In this document: in pieces, positions 1,465 to 28,056 of the stretch
Layout: the number at the start of each line of letters is the position of its first letter
How positions within the stretch are numbered: the stretch's first letter is position 1
Assembly (NCBI GenBank): GCA_020722765.1
Contig: DYKD01000015.1
Coordinates: 1-53,166 of the forward strand
Direction: 5' to 3'
Source: Brevinema andersonii
Lineage (GTDB): Bacteria; Spirochaetota; DYKD01
Length of the DNA stretch: 53,166 bases
Made by a program: the position numbers and the translations under genes
Notes under the pieces: generated by a model
What the model saw: only the letters and a program-made list of their open reading frames with translations
What the model was told of the DNA's origin: nothing
The model's database searches: none

Positions 1465-1567
1465 ACAGACCATCCTTTACGACAATATAATAAGAGAAGC
1501 GCAGAAAAGCAAAGGGAAGAATTTCATCCGCCTTGAAACATCCTTTAATCAGATTGAAAATTAGAAA

Positions 1568-3118
1568 CTATTCCAAACAACCATAAGCATCAGGTATGGA
1601 ATCAATCACATCTGATGCCAATAGGCTTCGAACCCCTTTTTTCTTTACGCCGAAATCCGCAGCTTTTCCGTGTAGCCACACAGAAAAAAGCACATGCCTC
1701 AGCAAGGAAAAAGTGAGAAGCCCCCTATGGGAAAGCTCATCTGCCTGACAGACAACTCCTGCCAGTATTCCAGCCAAGACATCACCAGAACCTGCTTTTG
1801 CCAAACCTGGATTTCCTGTCGAATTGATCCAGACCTGCTCTTCAAGGGGATGAAAAATATATGTATCTGAAGATTTAAGGACAATGACTGCCTGGTACTG
1901 GATAGAAAATCCATGAACAGCTTTGATATCTTCCCGCTTCTGGAGATCAATTTTTCTTCCAAGCAAACGCTCCATCTCCCCAACATGCGGAGTCAGTACA
2001 GAACGGTTCCTGACAATATCGAGCAAAGTCAGATCCTCTGCTATCATATTCAAAGCATCAGCATCCAAAATGACAATCCCTTTCAACGTGGAAAGAAGGT
2101 CCTTTAGGTCTGCATGTCGTTCAGAAGAGACACCTAAACCAGGTCCTGCGAGTATCACTTTTTTCTCATGAATCCCAGTCTTCAAAAGGGGCATAGCCTC
2201 ATCCACTGGTTGGACCATTACTTCATGGAATTTTGATGACAGCACAGACCAGATCGACCTATCACAATACAAGGTGACAAGCCCGACACCAGACCTAATG
2301 GCAGCTTCACCTGCAAGGTATGCGGCTCCGTTCCTGTTTTCAGAACCTGCCCATATACCCAGATGTCCAAACATATTCTTGTGCGAATGATCAGGACGAG
2401 GAGGAATATCTTTTTTCGCTTCACTATCATCATACCATGAAAAGACGCTATCCACTGAGGCAAGGGAATCTTCTGAGAACCCAATATTCCTGATATGAAG
2501 TCTACCGCAATGACGTTTCATAGGATGAAGAAGAAGGGGTAACTTTGGCAATCCTATGGTTACAGTCTCATGAGCTCTTATAAAAAATGATGGGATCTCT
2601 ATACTATCAGAAAAAAAACCAGATGGAAGATCAAGAGAAACAACTTTTACTCCAGAACGGTTGATCTGACTGATCAGTTCGACATAATGTCCATTGATAT
2701 CTTTCGTAACACCTGTACCAAAAAGGGCATCTATGATGATTTCGCATCTCCTGATAGCTGCAGTATTAATGACAATATTTTTCAATGAAGTGACATCTCT
2801 TTTACGAATTCCTGTCAGATGCCTGTAAAAATATCTGCAGTCGCTCCGCATTTCAGATGGCTTTTTGGAATAAAAAACTGTAAGATCCCTGTATCCTTTT
2901 CTTCTAAGAAACATGGCGAGTGCGAACCCATCTCCCCCATTGTTTCCTGGTCCACAGAAAATTCCTATTCTTGTACTCTTGTTTAAGGAAAGATCCTTGG
3001 AACAGAAATCCGCAAGCATCAAGCCTGCACGCCCCATAAGATCCCTCGACTTTATTCCTTGGGCTTCACATGTCGTTCTATCCAGTTCTTCCGCAGAATT
3101 CTTATCTAGAACCTTCAC
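1568..3118 (-). CDS. nnr: bifunctional NAD(P)HX epimerase / dehydratase
   Basis: Repairs hydrated NADH and NADPH: the N-terminal half (about 1-215) is the YjeF/NnrE epimerase with the GPGNNGGDG loop at residues 56-64; the C-terminal half (about 230-510) is the ribokinase-like ADP-dependent NnrD dehydratase with LAGPGLG, a PHVGEMERL segment and the GSGDVLAG nucleotide-binding motif. Length (516 aa) matches the usual fused enzyme. Its ATG overlaps the stop codon of the upstream beta-propeller gene (ATGA), so the two are translationally coupled. This coupling has no obvious functional meaning. Cytoplasmic housekeeping metabolite repair. Confidence 0.93.
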   Translation of the reverse strand: MKVLDKNSAEELDRTTCEAQGIKSRDLMGRAGLMLADFCSKDLSLNKSTRIGIFCGPGNNGGDGFALAMFLRRKGYRDLTVFYSKKPSEMRSDCRYFYRHLTGIRKRDVTSLKNIVINTAAIRRCEIIIDALFGTGVTKDINGHYVELISQINRSGVKVVSLDLPSGFFSDSIEIPSFFIRAHETVTIGLPKLPLLLHPMKRHCGRLHIRNIGFSEDSLASVDSVFSWYDDSEAKKDIPPRPDHSHKNMFGHLGIWAGSENRNGAAYLAGEAAIRSGVGLVTLYCDRSIWSVLSSKFHEVMVQPVDEAMPLLKTGIHEKKVILAGPGLGVSSERHADLKDLLSTLKGIVILDADALNMIAEDLTLLDIVRNRSVLTPHVGEMERLLGRKIDLQKREDIKAVHGFSIQYQAVIVLKSSDTYIFHPLEEQVWINSTGNPGLAKAGSGDVLAGILAGVVCQADELSHRGLLTFSLLRHVLFSVWLHGKAADFGVKKKGVRSLLASDVIDSIPDAYGCLE

Positions 3119-4296
3119 TTCTCGATTCCGGTAATGCCAGCTTTGAAAATACCATCTACAGTGACAATCGCATCATTGATCTCAAAATCAGAGGTCTCTC
3201 CCACCTTTTCAAGAAGTGCATAGGAATCAGACAAGGATACAACCCGTGCTTTCCCTTTCAGCTTTGTCGGATCAAATCCCACCACAGAATTATTGAACGG
3301 ATTGATTTTCTCCTCATACACCTGGAATATATCTCCTTTTTTGATGCTATTTGCAGATCCTACTCCAATCTTATAAAATTTAGAGGATGGCAATTTGGAG
3401 GATATATTCTCAAAAGGAATGACCTTGATCACATCTTTGGGCAATTCATAAGAAACATAATCGTCATTCATTGAGAAAGACGGGAAAAAACCCTCATCCA
3501 ATATTTTTGAGGACTTATTTACAATCAGATTATAGACTTCTACGCCTTGTCCTTCAATACCATAAGCAAGATATTTCCCTTTGGAATCAAAAGAAAGTCC
3601 TTGGACAGGTCCACTCACAGAAAAAGAATTCGTATTTTTGTCAGGCATCTTCATCAGTATGATCCTATTTCCCTGTCCATTATAGAAAGCGTATGTGTTC
3701 CCATCACTCGAGACTGCGAAATCATCGATATCTGAAAGAAGGATATCACGCTCTCCTGCCGGATCCATGAAATAGACAGAGAATTCATCATCCATATAAA
3801 GAAGTCCCCGATCTCCTGGAAGATAATACGGCCGTCTTCCGAATGTGACCTGTGAATTGTTCTTAGAAGCTATATCATAGAGATAAATCTGACCATCGCC
3901 AGAATACAGGATCTTGAGGCTGTCCGGAGACCAGACAATGGAATCAATGGCTGAAACAGGAGTCTTGAATTCAGTCACATTCCTCTGACTATCAGAGACT
4001 TTCAATATGGAAGTATCCTGAAAGGCAATGTAATTACCATCATAGGACCAGACAGGAGAAATATTTTTCCCAAAAAAAAGAGTCTCCTCGGCACCATCAG
4101 ACATCGTATAAAGGCGCCACACTATAGACCCAGAACTTTTTCCGACGCTCCCATACAGGAAAGCGTTCATGGTGGGAGACCAGATCACACCTTTACCAGA
4201 AAGAGTGGTTGATCCGTCTTTACCTGTCTGTGAATAGGCAAAAGGGATGAATGCCAGAACCAGTAACATGAAAGTGATTTTTTTCATCATCATCAT
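3115..4296 (-). CDS. secreted TolB/PD40-like beta-propeller protein with FlgT-like C-terminus
   Basis: A signal peptide (MKKITFMLLVLAFIPFAYSQ) is followed by repeated four-stranded blades with motifs such as VWSYDGNYIAF, VWSPDSLKILYSG and SFDSKGKYLAYG, typical of TolB/WD40-like propellers. The last ~90 residues (IGVGSANSIKKGDIFQVYEE onward) resemble the small beta-domain at the end of FlgT and related surface proteins. Probably periplasmic. Six tandem ATG codons (4302-4285) open the frame. GGAG ends directly before the first, so the ATG at 4296 (6 nt spacing) or 4293 (9 nt) is the likely start. A near-consensus promoter lies upstream, separating it from the ATPase operon. A scaffold or ligand-binding role is only inferred from the fold. 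Confidence 0.7.
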   Translation of the reverse strand: MMMMKKITFMLLVLAFIPFAYSQTGKDGSTTLSGKGVIWSPTMNAFLYGSVGKSSGSIVWRLYTMSDGAEETLFFGKNISPVWSYDGNYIAFQDTSILKVSDSQRNVTEFKTPVSAIDSIVWSPDSLKILYSGDGQIYLYDIASKNNSQVTFGRRPYYLPGDRGLLYMDDEFSVYFMDPAGERDILLSDIDDFAVSSDGNTYAFYNGQGNRIILMKMPDKNTNSFSVSGPVQGLSFDSKGKYLAYGIEGQGVEVYNLIVNKSSKILDEGFFPSFSMNDDYVSYELPKDVIKVIPFENISSKLPSSKFYKIGVGSANSIKKGDIFQVYEEKINPFNNSVVGFDPTKLKGKARVVSLSDSYALLEKVGETSDFEINDAIVTVDGIFKAGITGIEK

Positions 4297-6389: not shown

Positions 6390-8135
6390 TCAGGCCATGT
6401 TCTGTATTGCTGTTATGATATCATCCAACTTCTTGTAATCGTCATTACTGATCTGATATTTCATCTGTGAGATTGTTGTGTAAACAGGATTGCTCCTGAT
6501 CTGGTTCACAGTCTCTCCAGCCTTGACGAGTTCCGTTCCTTTCCTATAGAATTCAATGACAACTTCAAGCATCTTGAACTGCTTGGCAGGAACAGTGAAC
6601 ATGTCAATCTTGTCATACGCATTCTGCTGCAGGAAAGCATTTTTAAATACCCTGCAAACTTCCAAAATCAATTTCTGGCTTTCAGGCAAGGTATCAGGAC
6701 CTACCAGTTTGACGACCTGCTGCAGTTTTATCTCTTTCTGGAGAAGATCCATTATGATGTTCCGGTATTCGAACCACCGTGTATCAACATTCTTTCCCCA
6801 CCACGAAGTGACTTCAGTCAGATATTCACTGTAACTCTCAATCCAACTGATGGCAGGATAATGACGAGAATTTGCCAGTTGCCTGTCCAAAGCCCAGAAA
6901 CAGCGGACAAACCGTTTTGAATGCTGTGTGACAGGTTCAGAGAAGTCTCCCCCTGGTGGTGACACAGCTCCAATGATGGAGATGGTTCCGTTCTTACCAC
7001 AAAGCGTTTCAGTGGCACCAGCACGTTCATAGAATTGGGCCAACCTTGTAGGAAGGTAGGACGGGAATCCTTCATCTGCGGGCATCTCTTCCATACGGCC
7101 AGAAAGCTCTCTCAAAGCTTCAGCCCAACGGGAAGTGGAGTCTGCCATGACTGCCACATCATATCCCATATCCCTGTAGTATTCAGCGATTGTGATTCCT
7201 GTATAAATGGAAGCCTCGCGCGCAGCTACAGGCATGTTTGAAATATTGGCAATCAGCACAGTCCGTCCCATGAGTGATTGTCCTGTACGGGGATCTATCA
7301 ATTTTGGAAAACTGAGAAGGACGTCTGTCATCTCATTTCCACGTTCTCCACAACCTACATAAACGATGATATCCACATCAGCCCATTTTGCTAGTGCGTG
7401 CTGGACCATGGTTTTTCCAGTCCCAAAACCACCTGGAACAATCGATGTTCCACCCTTTGAAAGAGGGAACAAAGTATCAATGACACGCTGTCCTGTGATC
7501 ATAGGAATATCTGAATTAATCCGTTTGGTGACAGGCCGAGGTTCACGTATGGCCCATGTCTGGTACATTTTCACTTCATACGTTCCAGTCTTACCTTTTA
7601 CCTTTGCAAGCACATGGTCAATATTGAAATCACCACTTGAAACCATCTCTTCAACAACACCTATCTCCTTGTCTGGTGGAACCATGACACGATGCTCTAC
7701 TGTTTCTGTCTCCTGCACAGTTCCAATAATCTGCCCTGGAGAAACCTGGTTTCCAACTTTAACCAACGGAGTGAATGCCCATAGTTTCTTATGATCAAGA
7801 GAATCTACACGGCTTCCTTTCTGGATATAATTTCCATACTTGTCGCGAATGGCAGTCAATGGTCTTTCTATTCCATCATAAATGGACCGTAAAAGACCAG
7901 GCCCCAGCTCCAAGGAAAGCGGCATTCCAGAACCAAAGACCTTGTCTCCAGGTTTTAATCCTGTAGTATCTTCGTAAACCTGGACAATCGCTTCTGTGCC
8001 ATCAAGACGGACAATCTCACCAATAAGGTGCTGATCGCCAACCTCAACAACTTCAAGCATGCGCGCATACTCAACGTTCTTGACTTTTACAACAGGGCCA
8101 TTAACTCCCTTGATCTGACCAATCTCTTGAGACAT
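6390..8135 (-). CDS. atpA: V/A-type ATP synthase catalytic subunit A
   Basis: Catalytic nucleotide-binding subunit, 581 aa. The P-loop reads GGFGTGKT (residues 235-242). The bulge or non-homologous region characteristic of V/A-type A subunits lies before it (about 110-190), which distinguishes it from F-type beta. GCGERGNEM, MADSTSRWAEALRE and GAVSPPGGDFSEPV are the conserved catalytic-head motifs. It is followed by atpB and atpD and preceded by atpE. Whether the enzyme works as a synthase or as an ion pump cannot be read from this subunit. Confidence 0.97.
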   Translation of the reverse strand: MSQEIGQIKGVNGPVVKVKNVEYARMLEVVEVGDQHLIGEIVRLDGTEAIVQVYEDTTGLKPGDKVFGSGMPLSLELGPGLLRSIYDGIERPLTAIRDKYGNYIQKGSRVDSLDHKKLWAFTPLVKVGNQVSPGQIIGTVQETETVEHRVMVPPDKEIGVVEEMVSSGDFNIDHVLAKVKGKTGTYEVKMYQTWAIREPRPVTKRINSDIPMITGQRVIDTLFPLSKGGTSIVPGGFGTGKTMVQHALAKWADVDIIVYVGCGERGNEMTDVLLSFPKLIDPRTGQSLMGRTVLIANISNMPVAAREASIYTGITIAEYYRDMGYDVAVMADSTSRWAEALRELSGRMEEMPADEGFPSYLPTRLAQFYERAGATETLCGKNGTISIIGAVSPPGGDFSEPVTQHSKRFVRCFWALDRQLANSRHYPAISWIESYSEYLTEVTSWWGKNVDTRWFEYRNIIMDLLQKEIKLQQVVKLVGPDTLPESQKLILEVCRVFKNAFLQQNAYDKIDMFTVPAKQFKMLEVVIEFYRKGTELVKAGETVNQIRSNPVYTTISQMKYQISNDDYKKLDDIITAIQNMA

Positions 8136-8158
8136 AATTGTACCTTCTTATGGTTTTT

Positions 8159-8821
8159 TCAGTTTTTCGATTCACAGGCATGTCCAAGCGTGCGACAATA
8201 ATCCAGATTCGCGACCAAAGCGTCAACATCATTGTTTATCTGGCGGATGACATCCTCTTTCCTACGCCTCCAGATCCCTTCCAAAGTATTGTCACTGACT
8301 ACATGTCCTGTCATATCACTAAGGATAAAACCGTCCAGAGCATCGTTCTTTTCAACAGAAAACTCATGACCAGGATGATCTTTCATATATTTCTTCAAGC
8401 TCTCTTCCAGTTTCGACGATCCAGAAATCCTTACAGCTCCTTGAAACAGGGGCAGACTCCTATCCAGCATGTTCACCATGAAGGGAATATACCGGGCATC
8501 ATCCTTCAAGGAGAGAAAATAATTATGGGTCATCTCAAGTATTTTCCTGATGAGGATCTGCTTCTCCATCAGGATCATCCGTTTCTGTTCGGATTCCAGA
8601 TTTCTTGCCTTGTTGGATTTCAGCGTCTTCACTGCAGCTTCAGCAGTCCGCTCTGCCTTAACCCTGATGTCCGCTACATCCGCATTCGCTTTCTTCTCAT
8701 ATTCCCTGATTGCCTTTTCATCAGCCGCCTTGATACTTGCAATCTCAGAAGTCGTCTTTGCCTCCAACTCCTGTATGATGTCCTGGCTGTTATCAATGAA
8801 AAATTCATCATTTGCTTTCAT
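8159..8821 (-). CDS. atpE: V/A-type ATP synthase subunit E (peripheral stalk)
   Basis: 220 aa. The N-terminal ~95 residues are charged and rich in Ala, Glu and Lys with heptad character (segments such as EKKANADVADIRVKAERTAE), giving the long helix that pairs with subunit H/G. The C-terminal part (about 110-215, with DGFILSDMTGHVVSDNTLEG) is the globular domain that contacts the A/B head. Family size and operon position (between F and A) agree. Sequence conservation in this subunit is low, so context carries part of the call. Confidence 0.87.
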   Translation of the reverse strand: MKANDEFFIDNSQDIIQELEAKTTSEIASIKAADEKAIREYEKKANADVADIRVKAERTAEAAVKTLKSNKARNLESEQKRMILMEKQILIRKILEMTHNYFLSLKDDARYIPFMVNMLDRSLPLFQGAVRISGSSKLEESLKKYMKDHPGHEFSVEKNDALDGFILSDMTGHVVSDNTLEGIWRRRKEDVIRQINNDVDALVANLDYCRTLGHACESKN

Positions 8822-8842
8822 ATCAGTTGCCTCTCCTCGGGA

Positions 8843-9142
8843 TCAGATAGAGATTCCCACGGCTTTCTTGATTATCTCTTCAATCGTAATCTTGTCCTCA
8901 ACTGGACCCGTCCTATCCGGAATATCGATGATCAGAGGGAAATCACAGGTAAAATTATATTTCTCTACCTCGATCATTTTTCCAACTTTTTCAGAAACCA
9001 GGATTATTCCATATTCCTTTTGGGAAAGAAGTTTCTTGATCTCAGAACCGGCATCTTCCCTATTGTCAACTACTATGCCTTCGATACCGACAAGCCTGAA
9101 TCCCAAGACCATGTCCCTGTCACCAAGAACAAAATATTTCAT
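8843..9142 (-). CDS. atpF: V/A-type ATP synthase subunit F
   Basis: 99 aa, standard for the small Rossmann-like F subunit that binds the D-subunit axle. MKYFVLGDRDMVLGFRLVGIEG and the later IILVSEKVGKMI are characteristic (compare the family pattern VIGDxDTVxGFRLAG and ILxTExIA). The ATG overlaps the stop of the cation-transporter relic (ATGA), so its translation may depend on ribosomes finishing that broken frame. Confidence 0.92.
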   Translation of the reverse strand: MKYFVLGDRDMVLGFRLVGIEGIVVDNREDAGSEIKKLLSQKEYGIILVSEKVGKMIEVEKYNFTCDFPLIIDIPDRTGPVEDKITIEEIIKKAVGISI

Positions 9143-9664
9143 CTTCTGCAGACTCCTTTATCGCAATCCTCTAACTCAAATTCCAGTGTGGAATGGCTAA
9201 TACCGAACTTCTCCTTAAGAAGGCATTTGATAGCCCTCTTGATCTCCTCCATCTTCCTGATATTGGCCTGAGCTATACGTACGTGTCCTTCATAAAAGAC
9301 ATCCCTCTCATTCAGGGACCACGCATGCACATGATGCAAATCCTCCACACATCTGATCTTGAGGATCTCTTCCTCTATTTTTTCCAATGAGATGTGGTCA
9401 GGAACAGACTGCATCAGGACGCTTGTATCCATAGGTCCGTTTCTTGTCTGATGGTTTTGATGCCACCTTCTCAGAAAACCAAGCCACCACAAGACTGAAT
9501 GTGTCCATGAAATTATGGAACGCATCAGACAGGAGAGCCAAGCTGTTTGATAACAGACCTCCAACAAGCTCGACAACTGAAATGATAAGATTGAGTACCA
9601 TGGGAAACCCCAGGGTTTTCAATCCCGCATGTTCATGGACATGAGAGCCCTCATGTTCGTGCAA
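9139..9664 (-). pseudogene. relic of a cation diffusion facilitator (CzcD/ZitB-like), internally deleted and frameshifted
   Basis: From a TTG at 9664 the first frame encodes a His-rich start (HEHEGSHVHEHAG), two membrane helices with the metal-site pattern LLSDAFHNFMD, and KRTYGYKR, the conserved N-terminal third of CDF metal exporters, then stops at 9398. The other frame (to 9139) encodes SVLMQSVPDHISLEKIEEEI and VEDLHHVHAWSL, the cytoplasmic C-terminal domain. The frames switch near 9415-9430, where YGYKR runs straight into SVLMQSVP. Everything between, that is transmembrane helices 3-6, is missing (roughly 400 bases by comparison with a normal CDF gene). The product cannot transport. It sits between atpK and atpF, and its stop overlaps the atpF start. 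Decay after insertion into the operon is inferred. Confidence 0.8.
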
Positions 9665-9680
9665 AAAAACAGACCTGTTA

Positions 9681-10073
9681 TTAGAACGCGTTCATGATGA
9701 GGAATCCGAACAGAACACCATAAATAGCAATCCCTTCCGCTAGACCGATGTAGATGAACGTTTTACCCATCATATCAGGCTTTTCTGCAATGACGCTTAG
9801 GGCAGCTGTAGCTACATGCGCAGTTGCGATACCTGCACCAATGGAGCCAAGTCCAACAGCAAGAGCTACACCCAAGTAAGCGATGGCTTTTGGCAAAGAC
9901 TGGGCTGTCTCTACTGTTGCACCTTCAGGATTGGTATCACCTGCAAAAAGGGAAACAGCACCCAATGAGAGAACCAAAACGATTACCAGTGCGAACAAAG
10001 CCGAACTGACTGCAACAAACCGTTTTAGTCCCTGACGAGCTTTGACCACTTTCTTTGAAATCTTTTTTTTCAT
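9681..10073 (-). CDS. atpK: V/A-type ATP synthase subunit K (membrane rotor ring)
   Basis: 130 aa with three hydrophobic stretches: an N-terminal one (FVAVSSALFALVIVLVLSLG) that may be a leader or extra helix, then the hairpin pair with the Gly-rich GLGSIGAGIATAHVATAA and the C-terminal IGLAEGIAIYGVLFGFLIM, whose Glu in LAEG is the ion-binding carboxylate. No clear Gln partner of the sodium-type site is seen in the first ring helix; proton coupling is a weak inference. The start at 10073 is chosen because GGAGGA (10083-10078) stands 5 nt before it; the ATG at 10085 overlaps that site. Confidence 0.93.
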   Translation of the reverse strand: MKKKISKKVVKARQGLKRFVAVSSALFALVIVLVLSLGAVSLFAGDTNPEGATVETAQSLPKAIAYLGVALAVGLGSIGAGIATAHVATAALSVIAEKPDMMGKTFIYIGLAEGIAIYGVLFGFLIMNAF

Positions 10074-10103
10074 TTTATCCTCCATAAGAATTGCTTTTCA
10101 TTT

Positions 10104-12089
10104 CTATTTCAACTTTAATGGTTTGAACTGCAAATTACCGTCCCTATAAAATTTTGTGAAAAACTCATAGAATTGGAGCCTGATTGCCTGGATTCCGGAA
10201 AGGAAGGCTTCCAAAATAATTATAAAAACATTTCCAACAATCAATACAATCCAATCACTGATACCGCCCCCTTTAGGATCTCCTACCATACTCGCAATAA
10301 TAAAAACACCTATAAAAAGACCTGCATGTGCGATAGCAAATGCTCCGATTCGGACAAAAGAAATGGAGTTGTTAAGATATCCAATGAAAAGCTCATAAGT
10401 CTGTATCAGCGACTCCAGGAAATACATTCCAATCCCCCCTTCAAAAGGCTCATGCTCTTTCTTAAGGAGATATAGGATAGGACCTTTGAAAAAAAGCAGA
10501 ATGACTGGAAGACCGAGCAAGGCAAAAACAACTGGCAAAGAGAGGACTCCCGAACCAGATTGCATGTAAACAAAAACACCTAAAGCTCCAAAATAGAAAA
10601 GGGCTCCAAGCAAACCATAATTATCGAATATGCCTTTCCTTATGTCTTTCACAATGAAGGAATTGATGAGGTTGAATATAAGCCCCAGAATGATGTAAAA
10701 AACACCAAACCCTATGGAAACTGCAACAATAGTCATAATATTATGAATGGGGTGCATCCACAAGGCTGGTATCAAATTCTCATAACCGAAAACACTTCCA
10801 AATAGCAAACCAAACAACATGGATGATGAACCGCAATAGACAAATATCTTGGCAAAATCCGTGGTCTTGATACCAAGAACCCGTTTCAGCCAGTTCTTGA
10901 CTCTCTTGTTATAGACCATAAAAAGTCCCAAAGCCAGAATGACAGCCCCGTGTCCGAGATCACTGAACATCATTCCAAACATGATCATATAGGTGATTGT
11001 AAAAATAGGGGTCGGGTCGATTGACTTATAGGCAGGAGGACCATAAGCTGAAACAAATATCTGGAAAGGTCTGAAGAAAACAGGGTTCTGGAACAGAATG
11101 GGAATATGGATTTTCCCTGCCTTGTAAGCTTCTGCCCGGCTTGCTTCAATACCTTCAATATAACAATGGTTCTTAGTCACACGCTTGATTGTTTCAACAA
11201 TCTTCTCTTTCTCCGAGGCAGGAGACCAGAATGACATACAGACATTATCCCCCGATTTCTTAAAAAAGGATTTGATGTCATTAAGCATACGCAGGTAATA
11301 AAACTCCCAATATTTTGGGAAAAGATACTCCCTGTCTTTGGAGACAAGTGCAGTCATTTCCTTCTGGAGAGCATCAATCTCATTCTTGAGCAAAGCCTTG
11401 GCACCTTCGATATCCTTATAGACATCTGAGATATCATGGAATTCTTTTGCAAGGTCGACATCAGTCCACCCATGATTCCTTAAAGCGCTATCCACATAAG
11501 CCTTGTTCTTGATCAAGCCCACGACAAGAGTCAGACACTGATCTTTTTTCTCTGACAAAGGATAAAGAATGACAGGAACACGCTCAAGACCTTTCCGTAA
11601 TGCAAGAAGTTGTTCCTGATCCATAGTGCCAAATCTATAGAAGACCACACTACTTCCGTCAAGGTTGAAAACATTATCTACCTGATTGAAGGTTCTAGTC
11701 TTTTCACTGGCTGACTCAAGTTCTTCCAATCTGTTCTTCTTACCATTCAGCCTATTGAGCAGGGAATAATAAGCGTCTGTAAACTCCCCTAACCTCTTGA
11801 TATCCTCTGAATGATCAGTCTTCCTGATGAAATCATAATTAGTGATTTCAGGCCTATGCTCCTTGAAATGGACTACATGGTCAATAGCGAACAGTTTCTC
11901 TTCGATATTTTTTATGTTTTCATATTCAGGAGAGACTGGAAATTTCTTAAGTTCAAGGCCTTCTGGCTGGACAGACTCAAATTCAACAAACTGCAGGTCT
12001 GCTTTTTCCAACAAAGGGAAAAGGGCAAGTTCAGAAAGTTTTTCCTGCAGGACGACCCTGAACAGGTACATCTTAGAAGGTGTGAACAT
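10104..12089 (-). CDS. atpI: V/A-type ATP synthase subunit I (membrane stator)
   Basis: 661 aa. The N-terminal half is a soluble arm with coiled-coil segments (about 90-120 and 230-270) that anchors the peripheral stalks. From about residue 350 on there are seven to eight transmembrane helices, beginning with the conserved IFTITYMIMFGMMFSDLGHG. The half-channels for ions lie between this part and the K ring. SFVRIGAFAIAHAGLF near the end is the conserved channel helix with its Arg. Its ATG overlaps the atpC stop by one base. Confidence 0.95.
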   Translation of the reverse strand: MFTPSKMYLFRVVLQEKLSELALFPLLEKADLQFVEFESVQPEGLELKKFPVSPEYENIKNIEEKLFAIDHVVHFKEHRPEITNYDFIRKTDHSEDIKRLGEFTDAYYSLLNRLNGKKNRLEELESASEKTRTFNQVDNVFNLDGSSVVFYRFGTMDQEQLLALRKGLERVPVILYPLSEKKDQCLTLVVGLIKNKAYVDSALRNHGWTDVDLAKEFHDISDVYKDIEGAKALLKNEIDALQKEMTALVSKDREYLFPKYWEFYYLRMLNDIKSFFKKSGDNVCMSFWSPASEKEKIVETIKRVTKNHCYIEGIEASRAEAYKAGKIHIPILFQNPVFFRPFQIFVSAYGPPAYKSIDPTPIFTITYMIMFGMMFSDLGHGAVILALGLFMVYNKRVKNWLKRVLGIKTTDFAKIFVYCGSSSMLFGLLFGSVFGYENLIPALWMHPIHNIMTIVAVSIGFGVFYIILGLIFNLINSFIVKDIRKGIFDNYGLLGALFYFGALGVFVYMQSGSGVLSLPVVFALLGLPVILLFFKGPILYLLKKEHEPFEGGIGMYFLESLIQTYELFIGYLNNSISFVRIGAFAIAHAGLFIGVFIIASMVGDPKGGGISDWIVLIVGNVFIIILEAFLSGIQAIRLQFYEFFTKFYRDGNLQFKPLKLK

Positions 12090-21488: not shown

Positions 21489-21920
21489 ATGTCAACAGCA
21501 CAAAAAGAAAAATCAACCATCGTTGTTCATAGCGGAGACTTGGACAAGATATATAGCGCACTCATAATAGCCAACGGAGCCCTTTCCATGGGAATGGAAT
21601 CGACACTTTTCTTCACTTTTTGGGGACTGGAGAGATTGAAGAAAGGGTCCTTAGACAAAGGGAAGCTTTCCAGTATGAATATGCTTGGCATAGGTCCAAC
21701 AATGGTAAAAAAGAAAATGAAGAAACAGAATGTACCAACACTGGACACACTAATGACCGATTACAAGGAACTTGGCGGAAAAATACTTGCCTGTGAAATG
21801 ACTATGGCTGTGATGGGAATAAAAAAGAGTGATCTCAGGCAGGATCTGATTGACGGATATGTTGGTGTCGGATCCTACATACAGGAAGCCCGAGAATCCA
21901 AGATGACCTTGTTTATCTGA
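21489..21920 (+). CDS. DsrE/DsrF-like (DsrE2-type) sulfur-carrier protein
   Basis: 143 aa. The N-terminal VVHSGDLDKIYSALIIANGA and MESTLFFTFWGLERLKKG match the DsrE-like fold; the single cysteine (Cys102) in ILACEMTMAVMGI is in the position of the reactive Cys of DsrE2-type sulfur carriers (family pattern ACxMSMdvMGi). Such proteins hold sulfur as a persulfide and pass it on. AGAGGT precedes the ATG. It is the first gene of a six-gene plus-strand run that includes a methyltransferase, a Cys-rich peptide, a radical SAM enzyme and a thioredoxin/reductase fusion, so supply of sulfur or redox equivalents to that pathway is likely. Fold call is firm, role inferred. Confidence 0.8.
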   Translation: MSTAQKEKSTIVVHSGDLDKIYSALIIANGALSMGMESTLFFTFWGLERLKKGSLDKGKLSSMNMLGIGPTMVKKKMKKQNVPTLDTLMTDYKELGGKILACEMTMAVMGIKKSDLRQDLIDGYVGVGSYIQEARESKMTLFI

Positions 21921-21937
21921 TTAAGGAAAAAAGTAGA

Positions 21938-22549
21938 ATGAGTGATACTCTCATACAAAAACGCTATGCCAAAGAGACAGAATCAGCGGGACTTGGATGT
22001 GCCAATCTCAATCCGTTTCTTGACATTAGAGCTGGAGAAAAGGTACTCGATCTAGGATGTGGTTCTGGTGGGCAATCTATTTTGTTGGCTGAAAAAGTTG
22101 GAACAGCAGGCAGTGTGACTGGTATTGATCTAACAACGGAGATGATTGATAAGGCAAAAGCGAAGAATCCTCCTGAAAACGTTGTTTTTCTTACGGCTGA
22201 TATGCATTCTTTGCCCTTTTCTGACAGATCCTATGATCTTATCCTATCCAATTGCGTCATCAATCATACTCTTAGAAAAGCTGATGTTTTCAGTGAGATC
22301 TTCAGGGTTTTAAAACCAGGAGGACGGTTTCTCATAGGCGATGTCATGTCTGTAGAAGCTCTACCTGAAGAAATCGCCAATGATCCAGTAGCTTTGGCAG
22401 ATTGCTGGGGGGGAGCCATTCCGAAGGAAAAATATCTTGAGATTGTGGAACAATGCGGATTTATCAAACTTGAAATCCTCTCTTCACGAAGGTACATGAA
22501 AAACGGCTATGAATTGGAAAGTATCACACTAAAAGGAGTGAGACCATGA
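21938..22549 (+). CDS. ArsM-like SAM-dependent methyltransferase
   Basis: 203 aa class I methyltransferase: VLDLGCGSGGQS (motif I, about 36-47), GIDLTTEMIDKA (acidic SAM loop with Asp64), RVLKPGGRFLIGDV. It also has three cysteines where arsenite methyltransferases (ArsM) have metalloid ligands: Cys21 in LGCANLNPF, Cys106 in LSNCVINH and Cys156 in DCWGGAIPKEKY. That suggests a thiol- or metalloid-bound substrate, but a peptide or another thiol compound is equally possible here because the next gene is a tiny Cys-rich peptide starting inside this stop codon (ATGA). It is shorter than canonical ArsM, which has a longer C-terminal domain. Confidence 0.8.
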   Translation: MSDTLIQKRYAKETESAGLGCANLNPFLDIRAGEKVLDLGCGSGGQSILLAEKVGTAGSVTGIDLTTEMIDKAKAKNPPENVVFLTADMHSLPFSDRSYDLILSNCVINHTLRKADVFSEIFRVLKPGGRFLIGDVMSVEALPEEIANDPVALADCWGGAIPKEKYLEIVEQCGFIKLEILSSRRYMKNGYELESITLKGVRP

Positions 22550-22665
22550 AAAGCGTAACGGTTGTGAATATCAACCAGACGAAATCCTGTTGTGGCACAG
22601 CCAACAGCAATGTGGCACAGTGTTGCAGCAAGAGTTCCAGCTTGGTGGCAGGATGCCACGATTAG
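22546..22665 (+). CDS. 39-residue Cys-rich peptide, candidate RiPP precursor
   Basis: Not recognised as a named family. ATG overlaps the methyltransferase stop (ATGA at 22546-22549) and has AAAGGAG at ideal spacing upstream. A leader-like N-terminus (MKSVTVVNINQTKS) is followed by CCGTANSNVAQ, CCSKSSSLVAG and CHD. The cysteines stand at 15/16, 26/27 and 37, with His38 completing a third pair: an exact 11-residue period with VAQ and VAG before pairs two and three. The next gene encodes a radical SAM/SPASM enzyme, and a terminator hairpin between them would raise peptide levels over enzyme, as is usual for modified-peptide precursors. A small metal- or metalloid-binding peptide is the main alternative. 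That it is translated is well supported; modification is inferred. Confidence 0.75.
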   Translation: MKSVTVVNINQTKSCCGTANSNVAQCCSKSSSLVAGCHD

Positions 22666-22670
22666 GTAGA

Positions 22671-22707
22671 AGAGGGACGGGAAGATTTTTCCCGTCCTCT
22701 TTTTTTT
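22671..22707 (+). terminator. intrinsic terminator / attenuator between peptide and radical SAM gene
   Basis: Left arm AGAGGGACGGGAA (22671-22683), loop GATTT, right arm TTCCCGTCCTCT (22689-22700) with a one-base bulge, then eight T (22700-22707). The GAGGTG ribosome site of the radical SAM gene begins directly after the T run. Partial termination would give many peptide transcripts per maturase transcript. Confidence 0.8.
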
Positions 22708-22717
22708 GAGGTGAACG

Positions 22718-24058
22718 ATGAAACTGTCTCGTTATAATCAGATCACAGAACTGTCAGACGGGCAATTTGCGATATATAACATTCTCTCAGGTGCTTTTGA
22801 TATCTGTAACAAGGACGTGGCAGATGCGGCCTCTGGAAAAGGTCCGGTTCCGGAAGCGTTCAGAGAAACACTGTTTGAAAGGGGATATATATTTCGAAAT
22901 GGACGAGATGAGCAGAACTATGTTGACAGAAGATATCAGGAGTTCCTATCTGAACAGGCGAAAAACGAGAATCAGTATTTGTTTGTCTTTGATTATTCCT
23001 GCAACTTTCAGTGTCCCTATTGTTATCAAAAGGGAACACCCATTTCACTCTCTTCTGATGATGATTTGGTTATGGATGCTTTTATTGATTTTGTAAGAAA
23101 GGATTCACAAAAAAACGGGAAAAGACCTTTTGTAACCCTGTTCGGTGGGGAACCATTGCTTGTTAGCACAAAAAGGAAAGACCAGGTATCACGGCTTGTG
23201 AAGAAACTTGCAGCAGAAAATATAGAACTTACAGTCGTGACTAACGGATATCATTTCTTGGAATACCTTCCCATTTTGCAGATGGCAAAGTTAAGGGAAA
23301 TCCATTTTACTCTTGATGGTTACAAGGATATCCATGACAAACGTCGTGATGTGAAAGAGGGAACAGGAAGTTTTGACAGGATCATCAAAGGAATGCATGC
23401 AGCGGTTGAGGCGGGAATAACAGTCAATTTGCGGATCATTACAGACAAAAGCACCATGCCAACATTTCCTCAACTCGCCACTCGTTTGCAGGAAGAAGGT
23501 TTTTTAGATCTTCCTAAAAACAAATTCAAGACATCATTGGGGCGTAATTACGAGTTAATCAATGATTCTGAAACCCCGGAAGTGTTATATACACTTGATG
23601 TGATGTATGCCGATTATGCGAAGCTTATGGTGGATAATCCCCTTGTGAAGAAGATGCACATGCCTTCCTTTTTTGGAATTACCATGATGATGGAGACTGG
23701 AGAGATGTACCTTCCCAGTTTTGATACATGTCCTGGAGCCAAGTCTGAATTCGTATTGGATCTTAGCGGACACATCTATTCCTGCACAGCGACTTGTGGT
23801 CGTGAAGATTATCAACTGGGAACCTTCTATCCCGAAGTCAGGTATAATGAAGCAGAACTGGAAAAATGGAAACAACGATCTATCCTTACTATTCCTGGCT
23901 GCAAGGATTGCAGTGTTGGGGTTGTTTGCGGTGGGGGGTGCGCTGTCATTGCCAAAGAGCAGAATGGCGATATCCTTTCAAAAAATTGTAAACCCATCAA
24001 GAAGGTGATGGATATAGGAATCGAATATTTCAAGAACGAGTTACTCAAAAAAATATAG
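22718..24058 (+). CDS. radical SAM/SPASM peptide-maturase-like enzyme
   Basis: 446 aa. Residues 1-85 hold a small domain (SDGQFAIYNILSGAFDICNK) of the sort seen ahead of radical SAM peptide maturases, where a peptide-recognition element may sit. CNFQCPYC (Cys95, Cys99, Cys102) binds the SAM-cleaving [4Fe-4S] cluster; FGGEP and THE-type strand motifs follow. The C-terminus has a complete SPASM set: a Cys before LSGHIYSC, then C-x2-C-x5-C-x3-C (395-408: CKDCSVGVVCGGGC) and a last Cys at 424, enough for two auxiliary clusters. Sactisynthases and related thioether- or C-C-forming maturases share this layout. The nearest candidate substrate is the upstream Cys-rich peptide. The bond formed cannot be predicted. 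Confidence 0.88.
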   Translation: MKLSRYNQITELSDGQFAIYNILSGAFDICNKDVADAASGKGPVPEAFRETLFERGYIFRNGRDEQNYVDRRYQEFLSEQAKNENQYLFVFDYSCNFQCPYCYQKGTPISLSSDDDLVMDAFIDFVRKDSQKNGKRPFVTLFGGEPLLVSTKRKDQVSRLVKKLAAENIELTVVTNGYHFLEYLPILQMAKLREIHFTLDGYKDIHDKRRDVKEGTGSFDRIIKGMHAAVEAGITVNLRIITDKSTMPTFPQLATRLQEEGFLDLPKNKFKTSLGRNYELINDSETPEVLYTLDVMYADYAKLMVDNPLVKKMHMPSFFGITMMMETGEMYLPSFDTCPGAKSEFVLDLSGHIYSCTATCGREDYQLGTFYPEVRYNEAELEKWKQRSILTIPGCKDCSVGVVCGGGCAVIAKEQNGDILSKNCKPIKKVMDIGIEYFKNELLKKI

Positions 24059-24066
24059 GAGGCCTT

Positions 24067-25347
24067 ATGGCAATAGAAATCAACAGTAATGAATTTGAAA
24101 AAAAAGTTATACAGGGAAAAGGTCCGGTAATAGTAGACTTTTATTCGACAGAATGTCCACCGTGCGAAGCCTTGGCTCCCAAATTCGAATATTTTTCTGA
24201 ACAATTCCATGGTAAGATCGCTTTTTACAAGATGTTAAGGCAAGGGAATAAGGAGCTTTCACTTTCGCTGGGTGTACGATCAAGTCCCACTCTCCTCTTT
24301 TTTTTAAATGGCAAAGAGGTGGGAGAACGCCTTTCAGGAGCAGTGAAAAAAAGCTCAATCCGCAAGGTGATAAAGGATTCGTTCGGACTTGTAGATGATA
24401 TATCCAAGATTGTCCGCAAGGAGATTCATACCGATGTGGCTATCATCGGTGCAGGACCTGCTGGTCTTACAGCTGGTCTTTATGCTTCCCGGGCAAAACT
24501 TGATACGTTGATCATCGATCAGGGAAATCCCGGTGGGCAGGTAAATCTCACCCATCTTGTTGCCAACTATCCTGGAACGGAAGAGCCCATCAATGGATAT
24601 ATGTTGATGCATAAGACAACGGAGCAAGTGTTGCACAATGGAGCAACCATAATGAGAGCTGCAGAAATTACTGCATTGGATCTCAAGAAAAAGACAATTG
24701 ACGTGGATGATGACAAACGCATAATAGCTCGTAGTATCATTTTAGCTACAGGCTCTAAACCACGTGAACTAGGATTGCCCGGTGAAAAAGAACTTTTTGG
24801 CAAAGGAATATCCTATTGTGCCACATGTGATGGCAAGTTTTATGAAGGAAAAGATATACTCGTCATTGGTGGTGGGAATAGCGCAGTGGAAGAGTCCATT
24901 TTTCTTGCTGAATTTGCGAAGAGCATAACCATAGTGCATCAGTTTGATGAATTCCAGGCAGAAAAGAAGTCCGCTGAAACCTTGCTGAGCAATCCCAAGG
25001 TGAAAGTCCTTTGGTCACATGAACCACGTGCTTTTATTGGTGAGGACTCTTTTCATATCCTTGAGGTAGAAGACTTGAAGGAAAAGAAACGGAAAAAGCT
25101 GGAAGGTTTTGCAGGAGTCTTTGTTTTTGTAGGATATGTTCCGCAGAATTCTCTTTTTGATAAACAGGTATCTCTCAACAAGTGGGGTTATGTTCAGGCA
25201 GATCCCCAAACAATGGCCATAGGTATGGATGGGGTTTTTGTAGCAGGAGATGTTCGGGAAAAAATATATAGGCAGATTACGACAGCAGTAAGTGATGGAA
25301 CCATAGCAGCCTTGTCTGTTCAGAATTTTTTACGCGAGAATCATTGA
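24067..25347 (+). CDS. thioredoxin-thioredoxin reductase fusion protein
   Basis: 426 aa. Residues 1-105 are a thioredoxin domain with CPPC at 30-33 (no preceding Trp, which is usual in WCGPC) and the cis-Pro loop SSPTLLFF. From about 121 a TrxB-like flavoprotein follows: FAD-binding GAGPAGL (128-134), redox-active CATC (251-254), nucleotide-binding GGGNSAVEE (268-276). The residues that normally clamp the NADPH 2'-phosphate (HRRDxFRA) read HQFDEFQA (291-298), without Arg, suggesting NADH or another electron donor. The order Trx-TrxR is the reverse of the fusion known from Mycobacterium leprae. AGGAGG of its ribosome site overlaps the preceding stop. Probably reduces disulfides of a neighbour protein or peptide. 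Confidence 0.9.
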   Translation: MAIEINSNEFEKKVIQGKGPVIVDFYSTECPPCEALAPKFEYFSEQFHGKIAFYKMLRQGNKELSLSLGVRSSPTLLFFLNGKEVGERLSGAVKKSSIRKVIKDSFGLVDDISKIVRKEIHTDVAIIGAGPAGLTAGLYASRAKLDTLIIDQGNPGGQVNLTHLVANYPGTEEPINGYMLMHKTTEQVLHNGATIMRAAEITALDLKKKTIDVDDDKRIIARSIILATGSKPRELGLPGEKELFGKGISYCATCDGKFYEGKDILVIGGGNSAVEESIFLAEFAKSITIVHQFDEFQAEKKSAETLLSNPKVKVLWSHEPRAFIGEDSFHILEVEDLKEKKRKKLEGFAGVFVFVGYVPQNSLFDKQVSLNKWGYVQADPQTMAIGMDGVFVAGDVREKIYRQITTAVSDGTIAALSVQNFLRENH

Positions 25348-25359
25348 AGTAAAGAATTT

Positions 25360-26109
25360 ATGGATCATAAAGAAGGATGTCTGATCTGTGGTAAACCACT
25401 CGTTTACACGGATCAGTCTGAAAAACGAAAATGTGTTTTCTGTGGTGAAGAAAAATCGAGTACAAGCATTTGTTCGGAAGGACACTTTGTATGTGACACG
25501 TGTCATGGTGCTGATGGAATTGATGTCATCACCATGTTTTGTCTGAACTCGGATGAAACTGACCCTATGGCTATGGCTCTCCAACTTATGCGTCATCCTT
25601 CTATACATTTGCATGGGCCAGAGCACCATTATCTTGTTCCAGCCGTATTGATCACAGCCTATCTCAATAAAAAGGGGATGAAGAAAGAGAAGAAAGCATA
25701 TCTCGAAGAAACACAGAAAAGATCTGCCAATATTCCTGGTGGAGCTTGTGGTTTGATGGGTGTTTGTGGAACGGGGGTTGGGACGGGAATATTCGTAAGT
25801 CTTGTGACAAAATCGACACCTCTCTCAAAGGATGAATGGGAATTGACAGGGCAGATGGCAGTTCAAGCATTGGGAAAAATAGCAGGAGCAGGAGGTCCCC
25901 GCTGTTGTAAAAGGACCAGTTATATAGCCATTGAAAATGCCATGGAATTCATCAGATTCCAAGGATTGGGAGATTTAGGTGTGCCAACGACTGTTAAATG
26001 TTCTTATTCAAAATTAAACAAGGAATGTCAGTATACAGACTGCCGTTTTTTCAATCCAGAAAAGGAGAAATCTTATATCCCCAAAAAAGATGACTCCTGT
26101 TGCTGTTAA
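25360..26109 (+). CDS. DUF5714-like Cys-rich protein ending in Cys-Cys-Cys
   Basis: 249 aa, function unknown; resemblance to DUF5714 is from recollection of the family and unverified. The N-terminus looks like zinc ribbons: C7-x2-C10, C25-x2-C28, C38, C45-x2-C48. A central Gly/Cys-rich patch (GGACGLMGVCGTGVGTGI), GPRCCKRTS and CQYTDCRFF follow, and the chain ends DSCCC. No signal peptide. It closes the plus-strand cluster. A role in binding a metal(loid) or carrying a thiol-bound intermediate for the methyltransferase or radical SAM enzyme would fit, but is inference. The ribosome site is weak; coupling to the upstream gene (12-nt gap) is likely. Confidence 0.6.
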   Translation: MDHKEGCLICGKPLVYTDQSEKRKCVFCGEEKSSTSICSEGHFVCDTCHGADGIDVITMFCLNSDETDPMAMALQLMRHPSIHLHGPEHHYLVPAVLITAYLNKKGMKKEKKAYLEETQKRSANIPGGACGLMGVCGTGVGTGIFVSLVTKSTPLSKDEWELTGQMAVQALGKIAGAGGPRCCKRTSYIAIENAMEFIRFQGLGDLGVPTTVKCSYSKLNKECQYTDCRFFNPEKEKSYIPKKDDSCCC

Positions 26110-26165: not shown

Positions 26166-27191
26166 TCATTCATATTCATAAAAAAGATAATAGCTTTCCC
26201 CGCCAGATGAGTAGCGCCCGCTACTCGAATAGATATGCAACATTTCTGATGGACGTCCTTTTTCATCATGGCTTCTCTGCATCTTGACAATGACACCATG
26301 CTCTGCTATGTTCTCGACACTCCCCACAACACGATTTTCAGCATCGTAGGAAAGCTTCTCGACATACAAAGCGCTTATCCCTCCGTCATCAATCCTCCTG
26401 ATGACATTCCCGCTGTCATCAAAAATGGTATCCCGCACGTCAGCTTCCAGAGGGCCTACATACTTGACTGTCAGGATCCTGTTCCCCTTACTGTCATATC
26501 CGTATTTCTGCACAAAATCAAAACCATCAGAAGACCATGTTTCTGCAAAAAGCCGGCCTTCCTTGTAAATATGGTTACGGACTAGAGCCTGGTCTTCAGT
26601 ATATTCTGTCTCTTTGACAAGAAGACCGTTCTCATCATACTCATATCCAATGCGCACCATTTCATTTCCTGAGCCATCACATTGCCTGAAAGAGAGAAGG
26701 TTTCCCTTTTCATCATAAGCTCTTTCTGTCACAGACTGGACTGTATTTTCCCAGTCATGGACTTCTGTCTTTACAGGCCGTCCTGCGGCATCATGCCATA
26801 CGAATTCCTTTTCATGGACTTCCTTGTCAAAATACTGAATTCGCAAATGAAGTTTTTCCACGTCATCATAAGTGATGATTGTCTTGACTGGCAAAGGACA
26901 ATCCTCTCCAGTCTCTTCCCTATTCACAAGTCTGCCTTGCGAATCATAGGTCTGTGCAATTCCATGTTGGAGTTTACCGTCTGGAAAATATTGCTTAGCT
27001 TCAACAACCCTTCCCTCGCTATCAAACCGGGCTTCTTGCCATAGGAATCCTTTTTCAATTGGATCTGTTTCTGGATGGTCACTATGCGTTGCTTGTAAGG
27101 ATACTTCTCCGTTCCACGATTTGAGTTCATTCCTATAAACACGCACACATTCCGCATCCTTCAGCTTGCCATATTCAAAAAGACCGTTCAT
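26166..27191 (-). CDS. YD-repeat protein without secretion signal
   Basis: About 341 aa made of short beta-hairpin repeats with Tyr-Asp and Gly-Arg/Asn turns (YDSQGRLVNRE, YDEKGNLLSF, YDENGLLVKE, YDSKGNRILTV, YDAENRVVGSV, HDEKGRPSEML), as in Rhs/YD-repeat shells and the YwqK-type antitoxin-like family. It has no signal peptide, no RHS core and no toxin tip, so it is not a typical Rhs effector. The start at 27191 has GAGGT 7 nt upstream and stays clear of most of the transporter gene; the longer frame to 27245 would overlap that gene by 44 bases. It follows the EamA transporter gene in the same direction. Function unknown. Confidence 0.6.
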   Translation of the reverse strand: MNGLFEYGKLKDAECVRVYRNELKSWNGEVSLQATHSDHPETDPIEKGFLWQEARFDSEGRVVEAKQYFPDGKLQHGIAQTYDSQGRLVNREETGEDCPLPVKTIITYDDVEKLHLRIQYFDKEVHEKEFVWHDAAGRPVKTEVHDWENTVQSVTERAYDEKGNLLSFRQCDGSGNEMVRIGYEYDENGLLVKETEYTEDQALVRNHIYKEGRLFAETWSSDGFDFVQKYGYDSKGNRILTVKYVGPLEADVRDTIFDDSGNVIRRIDDGGISALYVEKLSYDAENRVVGSVENIAEHGVIVKMQRSHDEKGRPSEMLHIYSSSGRYSSGGESYYLFYEYE

Positions 27192-27201
27192 ATCTGTAAC
27201 C

Positions 27202-28056
27202 TCATTTCCAAAGTGCGAGAATCGTAATTCCTGTGATTCCTGCAAATACTCCCAACCATCCTGAACCCCTTATCTTTTCCTTGAAAAAAAGAGATGAGAT
27301 TCCCATGCCAAGGATTATGGGAGCACTCAAAGTGATCGGATAAACAACAGCGGGTGAAAGGGTTTTCAATGCTGAAAGAGTGCAATAGACTCCAATATAA
27401 CTTGCTATAGATGCGATGCTTCCATATAGCAAAGCCCTTGTATCAAACTTTTTTTGTTTTAAATAAAAAGGAAGAAGGAGGAACGCACCTGCAGCATAAG
27501 AAAGGAACAGGTATGCAAAAAAACTCTGCTTGTATGTGCTTGTAAGAAGCTGTCCCACGCGCGGCAACCCACTCAACAAGAAAGCCGCCATGATGATGAC
27601 AAACCATTTCCATTCTGATCCTTTCCCTTTTGAAAAGGCGTCATTCGACCAGGACATAAGAAAGATAGCTCCAAGAATGAGTAGTATTCCTGCTGATGTT
27701 GTCAGTTTGAGGACAGCACCAAAAAATAGGATTCCAACAACCACAGGCACAAGAAATGAGGACCTATAAATGGCATTTGAAAAACCGAAATGTCCCATAC
27801 GTATGGCATGATTGAATGTGAGCACAGCCAATCCACCACCAAAACCTGCAGGAACAGCATATAAAAAAACAGAAGGGGTATAAGCAGATACAGGGACTTT
27901 GAAAAGAAGTGTGAAAAGATATCCAAACAGCGTGGCCAGGACAAAAATAACAGCCGTCAGATCCAAAGAAGGAATCCCTTTACGACCCGCAAGCTTTCCC
28001 ATCATCGCAACAGTAAGGATAGCGAAAACAACAGCAGTCACATGTAAAAATCCCAT
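27202..28056 (-). CDS. EamA/DMT-family transporter
   Basis: 284 aa with about ten hydrophobic helices, in two five-helix halves; the C-terminal half ends with LSPAVVYPITLSAPIILGMG and SSLFFKEKIRGSGWLGVFAG, the usual EamA closing motif. The family moves metabolites such as amino acids or nucleotide-related compounds across the inner membrane, mostly as exporters. The substrate is not predictable. AGGAG is well placed before the ATG. Confidence 0.88.
   Translation of the reverse strand: MGFLHVTAVVFAILTVAMMGKLAGRKGIPSLDLTAVIFVLATLFGYLFTLLFKVPVSAYTPSVFLYAVPAGFGGGLAVLTFNHAIRMGHFGFSNAIYRSSFLVPVVVGILFFGAVLKLTTSAGILLILGAIFLMSWSNDAFSKGKGSEWKWFVIIMAAFLLSGLPRVGQLLTSTYKQSFFAYLFLSYAAGAFLLLPFYLKQKKFDTRALLYGSIASIASYIGVYCTLSALKTLSPAVVYPITLSAPIILGMGISSLFFKEKIRGSGWLGVFAGITGITILALWK

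Follow-up and report, generated by a model that had tools for sequence, protein, structure and literature searches.

Among the closest described systems to the locus treated here are those of the thioether-forming SCIFF (TIGR03974)/CteB and PapB ranthipeptide maturases, in which, likewise, a radical S-adenosylmethionine (SAM) enzyme with a SPASM domain is encoded beside a short cysteine-bearing precursor. The peptide-derived cofactors pyrroloquinoline quinone (PQQ) and mycofactocin offer a working analogy: their precursors are short and hardly vary in the C-terminal core, they have a SPASM enzyme and a recognition element (RRE) of the kind found in systems for ribosomally synthesised and post-translationally modified peptides (RiPPs), and their products are used in the cell. 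The present locus lies on contig DYKD01000015.1 of Brevinema andersonii (assembly GCA_020722765.1), in a stretch of 53,166 nucleotides (the window). Its conserved core is formed by four genes, encoding a short peptide, an ArsM-like methyltransferase, a radical SAM/SPASM enzyme presumed to be the peptide maturase and a thioredoxin-thioredoxin reductase fusion. From gene content and conservation, this is very probably a dedicated radical SAM RiPP cassette and, as far as these tools show, a new RiPP class with its companion set, of a kind (radical SAM RiPP) that is already known.

The locus differs from SCIFF and PapB in the precursor core and in the methyltransferase and thioredoxin fusion that accompany it, and the window maturase scores 90.3 bits against the SCIFF model (cut-off 425) and 107.7 bits against PapB (NF047865, cut-off 340). 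As to PQQ and mycofactocin, no homologous precursor was identified in the cassette, and neither a peptidase nor a dedicated dehydrogenase is conserved among its clustered neighbours. A first-pass annotation, made from the DNA alone, had proposed an undescribed RiPP-like system at this place. That proposal is supported by the exceptionless co-occurrence, in the two phyla sampled, of the peptide with close relatives of the maturase and by the absence of a convincing NCBIfam or Pfam match to the peptide; no description of the gene set was found in the accessible part of the open literature searched.

The peptide and its presumed maturase

The peptide gene (22546..22665, plus strand, 39 aa, no family) is preceded by AAGGAG, and its start codon lies within the methyltransferase stop as ATGA. 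The conserved C-terminal core is AQCCSKSSSLVAGCHD (22615..22662, plus strand), followed by the stop codon at 22663-22665. To study the recurrence of this peptide, two genome samples were searched, 392 from the window's phylum and 398 from that of Falcatimonas sp. MSJ-15, which NCBI places in Bacillota; they gave 56 loci (37 and 19, respectively) picked by peptide or maturase. Across the 56 loci the peptide ends in AQCC[AST]Kx[ST]xxxxGCH[DN]-stop, the invariant residues being AQCC, K, G, C and H. Exceptions within the motif are few: the core departs from it in L105 only (Ala at the Ser/Thr position) and Asn is the last residue in L106 only. Synonymous codons vary freely at the conserved core (four for Gly, four for Ala and two each for Cys, His, Gln and Lys, in 55 loci). 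Outside the core the members range from 30 to 52 residues in total length; the N-terminal part is variable in length, many members start with MKS or a close variant, and additional Cys pairs are present upstream of the core in some. Such a hardly changed core suggests a cofactor-like product and not a variable bacteriocin.

The maturase search gave nine matches in 60 relatives (E <= 1e-40) and 32 in the 392 genomes of the window's phylum (E <= 1e-75), with peptide homologues near the maturase in the loci fetched. Independently, a peptide profile built from 32 peptides, and searched without using the maturase, found 37 matches (E <= 5.5e-10) among these 392 genomes. They comprise all 32 genomes with a maturase match, and five others in which the peptide has beside it the methyltransferase and some or all of the maturase; two weaker matches (G227 at 9.6e-4 and G388 at 0.004) stand outside this count. 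The same profile matched 19 of the 398 genomes in the Bacillota sample, and a separate maturase search identified exactly those 19 (E <= 1.2e-103). Of the next three Bacillota matches to the maturase (1e-54 to 9e-44), one was a broken copy and the other two were remote enzymes (27 % identity) that lack this peptide. Three remote enzymes (27-29 % identity) came out of a contig scan for named relatives, and the peptide profile had no match in the three genomes of remote relatives (3/3).

Close relatives of the maturase have the peptide in the same genome in 32 of 32 cases in the window's phylum and in 19 of 19 in Bacillota, and the peptide gene stands directly before the maturase gene in 55 of the 56 loci. 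The first-pass annotation had set in advance what would speak against it, namely maturase homologues without a nearby Cys-paired peptide or a peptide that is not conserved in related genomes; for close homologues these counts show neither, and the idea survived. Its question whether small Cys-rich frames with paired Cys recur upstream of the maturase is answered with yes by the same 55 loci, and the 39-aa Cys-rich frame that it had picked out is real and not a chance one, as it recurs in the profile matches of both samples.

The maturase itself (22718..24058, plus strand, 446 aa) contains the radical SAM cysteines C95, C99 and C102 (CxxxCxxC) and seven SPASM cysteines between C338 and C424, ten columns in all that are invariant in 52 aligned maturases; the SPASM set had been read as complete at first sight, and is so. 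Its structure was predicted from 45 sequences with a mean predicted local distance difference test (pLDDT) score of 92.6. The N-terminal domain (22718..22957, plus strand) is formed in the model by three strands and then three helices, an order of elements that resembles an RRE, and the domain is a candidate RRE-like one. The best solved structures found by Foldseek were 5why/5wgg, an enzyme of sactipeptide thioether formation that is presumably CteB, followed by TigE and SuiB, with identities of 15-18 % and TM-scores of 0.52-0.67. The ten best NCBIfam models gave 77-146 bits for the window maturase against cut-offs of 340-855: CefB (Cys-every-fifth, NF038107) 146 bits against 600, geopeptide 123 against 400, TIGR04463 120 against 525 and Clo7bot 102 against 600. 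The CefB, TIGR04463, Clo7bot and PapB models matched 45 of 45 maturases at E <= 1e-20, and the geopeptide model matched 43.

The peptide could also be an unmodified mini-metallothionein or metallochaperone, with the radical SAM enzyme acting elsewhere. It is very short and Cys-rich, and a few of the 32 members gave weak matches of this sort: a metallothionein family in one (E 0.013), the BTK zinc motif in two (best E 0.012) and the vicinal-cysteine protein VcpD in one (E 0.097), the last being the sole match to an NCBIfam precursor model. The window peptide also matched VcpD weakly (E 0.5), far from the cut-off of 90, and none of the matches of the peptides scanned to NCBIfam 20.0 or Pfam was convincing. 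The exceptionless co-occurrence with a maturase-type SPASM enzyme in two phyla, the place of the gene directly before the maturase and the layout of the peptide, with a leader and an invariant core, all argue against an unmodified peptide, which we regard as very improbable.

A terminator-like hairpin of 11 pairs followed by a T run (22674..22698, plus strand) was identified between the peptide and maturase genes. Such a hairpin with a T run is present in 13 of 51 peptide-maturase gaps, against 0.7 in shuffles, and absent from the other 38; five of the 56 loci were left out, L019 and L067 (no usable pair) and L027, L104 and L105 (gaps of less than 20 bases). The same test gave 1/40 and 2/17 in two other cassette gaps, and a scan of the window region overall gave five sites against 3.9 in shuffles. 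Over-expression of the precursor is usual in RiPP operons; the hairpin fits this and probably gives partial read-through into the maturase gene.

Companion genes and the conserved core

Six plus-strand genes in close order had been taken by the first-pass annotation as one unit, with the question whether the five other families occur together with the maturase. The open reading frame (ORF) coordinates confirm the six genes and their order in the window, but the unit of six is rejected when the other loci are compared: co-occurrence holds for the methyltransferase, the maturase and the thioredoxin fusion, and fails for the DUF5714 protein (clustered in 15 of 56 loci, 11 of them Bacillota), which is accessory, and for the DsrE protein (2 of 56, one on the opposite strand). 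By tblastn with the window proteins the methyltransferase, never a search seed, was identified in 56/56 loci, the maturase in 55/56 and the thioredoxin fusion in 49/56. The maturase of the 56th locus, L067, is cut by the contig end with its first 95 residues present. Seven loci lack the thioredoxin fusion. Five of them (L016, L027, L052, L064 and L068) each consist of an entire contig of 3.3-4.6 kb, and in L050 the sequence breaks off immediately ahead of the methyltransferase; the seventh, L103, is considered below. Gene order is not fixed: the thioredoxin fusion precedes the methyltransferase in L047, L048, L058, L060-L063, L065-L067, L088, L096 and L101; the methyltransferase is last in L103 and L106; and genes on the opposite strand are the peptide in L019 and the thioredoxin fusion in L019 and L105.

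The thioredoxin-thioredoxin reductase fusion (24067..25347, plus strand) contains a CPPC thioredoxin site and a CATC reductase site, found as CxPC in 47 of 48 relatives (one gap) and as CAxC in 48 of 48. Its altered cofactor site, which had been noticed from the translation, stands out in the comparison with the solved thioredoxin reductase 7aaw, where HRRDTLRA (general form HRRDxxRA) corresponds to HQFDEFQA in the window; H[QE]FDx[LF]QA is the commonest form in the 48 relatives, Phe293 and Gln297 each being present in 44. Loss of the HRRDxxRA arginines would disfavour the reduced dinucleotide phosphate cofactor NADPH as the donor. Directly after the fusion, L054 (11623-12174) and L049 (12802-13374, both in cassette orientation) each encode a protein, of 183 and 190 aa respectively, that begins with MNC and has clustered Cys, and the two look related; the first 70 residues of the 183-aa protein had no Pfam match at E <= 0.001.

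The DUF5714 protein (25360..26109, plus strand, 249 aa) ends with CCC, as first described, and has 14 cysteines that are invariant in 15 aligned members. The count by tblastn is 16 loci, the extra one being an antisense fragment in L102. Its score against MbdU, a metal-binding double selenoprotein, is 149.7 bits, far below the cut-off of 600. The predicted model has a mean pLDDT of 84.1 and no solved structure in PDB matches it at E <= 0.001, so the fold of this Cys-rich family may be one not seen before. The DsrE2-like protein (21489..21920, plus strand, PF13686) adjoins the cassette in the window and is no conserved part of it.

A MarR-type regulator was identified in eight loci, all in the window's phylum. 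Those upstream of the cassette in L043, L046 and L053-L056 have two invariant cysteines (6/6 aligned) and may serve the cassette as sensors of thiols or of a metalloid. No further protein cluster was present in more than eight of the 56 loci (ORFs of at least 70 aa, judged from sequence starts, with family models run on some), so neither an exporter nor a peptidase was seen to be conserved.

The ArsM-like methyltransferase and a candidate metalloid role

The methyltransferase (21938..22549, plus strand, 203 aa) has the fold, the SAM motif and three cysteines in common with ArsM (PRK11873, NF008823), against which it scores 182.5-183.1 bits with a cut-off of 263. It is shorter than 20 other ArsM-type proteins from the same genomes (242-287 aa) and accompanies the peptide cassette in every locus examined, these loci having been picked by peptide or maturase. 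The three cysteines pointed out at the start, C21, C106 and C156, all align with cysteines of the solved arsenite methyltransferase 5evj, presumably its As(III) ligands. C106 and C156 are present in 50 of 50 aligned rows, and C21 is kept wherever a row extends that far (48/48), six loci without a usable ORF pair having been left out. The clearest cassette-specific change is His110, found in 50/50 cassette enzymes, where the 20 other ArsM-type proteins have Leu (14/15 with one gap; 5/5).

The first-pass suggestion that the peptide is sulfur-modified or binds a soft metal or metalloid stays a tentative one. A soft-metalloid (arsenite-like) role is preferred because the methyltransferase keeps three arsenic-type cysteines. 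The full explanation that we favour, with a probability of roughly 0.38, is that the cassette peptide would be a thiol cofactor carrying a soft metalloid to the ArsM-like methyltransferase. Starting from the parts, their co-occurrence and the conserved residues, which are observed, we infer the chemical steps, the location of the product and the ligand as follows. The peptide of 30-52 residues would be made, probably in excess of the enzymes, and held through its leader by the RRE-like N-terminal domain of the maturase, which would modify the AQCCxKxSxxxxGCHD core, a cross-link derived from Cys being the likeliest change. As a thiol peptide resembling a cofactor, the product would probably remain intracellular, and either it or the methyltransferase would be kept reduced by the thioredoxin-flavoprotein fusion. 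The three-thiol core, plus His, would bind As(III) or another soft metalloid and present it to the methyltransferase in a glutathione-like role. A wider wording, in which the tri-thiol peptide shaped by the maturase carries As(III) or a similar ligand to the ArsM-type methyltransferase or itself ends with a methylated metalloid, and so would be a gene-encoded peptide cofactor of organometalloid metabolism, is likewise tentative, its chances lying below even.

Should the carrier role be right, a RiPP class found in two bacterial phyla with a hardly changed core would join those known, the radical SAM chemistry of peptides would be tied to the arsenic-methylation enzyme family, and a cassette of one peptide and three enzymes would make a short and direct system in which to test a peptide-metalloid link.

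Further observations bear on the carrier role, for and against. The conserved cysteines favour a metalloid, but the linkage to arsenic genes is weak: ACR3 is linked to only one of 56 intact cassettes, where chance would give 0.13 at a distance of up to 3 kb and 0.27 at up to 9 kb. This single case, which counts in favour, is L019, where the cassette lies beside ACR3, ArsR, a stand-alone ArsM and an arsenate-reductase-like protein that scores below its cut-offs. Also in favour, ACR3 above cut-off is more frequent at the genome level with the cassette (39/56 against 30/78 others, p 0.0004), an excess that is weaker at matched size (30/39 against 20/38 in genomes of at least 2.9 Mb, p 0.03) and may reflect ecology, at least partly. 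Against the role, a full-score ArsM is also present in 14 of the 56 cassette genomes, so plain arsenic methylation does not require the cassette in those genomes. The regulator of the eight loci is of the MarR type and not ArsR. When 48 cassette enzymes and 20 other ArsM-type proteins were placed in one tree, neither group formed a clade (support 32 and 66); a single clade of cassette methyltransferases was thus not recovered in this weakly supported tree. Finally, L103 has no thioredoxin fusion within its full 18 kb.

The cassette could also be that of an ordinary RiPP, in which the maturase cross-links the peptide and the ArsM-fold enzyme methylates it on Lys, His, Ser or Cys. The methyltransferase cysteines would then act in thiol exchange with the peptide, the thioredoxin fusion would keep the Cys pair reduced, and the product would be a thiol redox cofactor, a signal or an antimicrobial. 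The methyltransferase is present in all 56 loci, against a single one with linked arsenic genes; the core offers possible methylation sites in its invariant Lys and His and near-invariant Ser/Thr; and His110 replaces the Leu of stand-alone ArsM near the conserved Cys106. Peptide methylation has no need, however, of the three arsenite-methyltransferase cysteines, which are kept in every covering row, and ArsM-type enzymes are not known to methylate peptides. An ordinary RiPP of this kind is a serious possibility, although we would not call it probable.

The metalloid could also be the end of the pathway, the mature peptide bearing it covalently as a toxin or storage form, for example with methylated As, Sb or Se attached to its cysteines, or through a carbon-metalloid bond set by the maturase. 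ArsM and a radical SAM enzyme are found paired in the pathways of arsinothricin and arsenosugars, and the present cassette joins an ArsM-like enzyme, a radical SAM enzyme and a Cys pair. Against this, the neighbour clusters contain no conserved exporter or self-protection gene, and the maturase resembles peptide maturases, with no arsinothricin or arsenosugar radical SAM model among the matches listed. Such an organometalloid product is unlikely.

Two further arsenic candidates were rejected: the transporter of L102, which belongs to the SBF family and scores 64.8 bits as ACR3 against 282.8, and an arsenic operon at L054, as the sole ACR3 match of that genome (G142) lies on another contig. L109 (G549; 7091-7973, with 770-4091), which counts in favour of an arsenic link, contains broken methyltransferase and maturase pieces about 5 kb from ACR3, with the mercury-methylation pair HgcA and HgcB between; the broken cassette pieces also lie near ArsR and an arsenate-reductase-like protein.

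Neighbouring genes and other loci

The window had no Rfam or tRNA matches in the scans made for them. Just past the cassette, on the opposite strand, an RHS-repeat protein is encoded (26166-27245, minus strand). Viral spread of the peptide was considered and dropped, the peptide DNA pattern having 0 matches in the viral contig set. L108 (G416) contains a 49-aa ORF ending ACINLCCWNCCFQI (7568-7717) just before two tandem radical SAM/SPASM genes (7834-10709), with nearby genes that look ABC-transporter-like from their sequence; this locus is possibly a different RiPP cluster.

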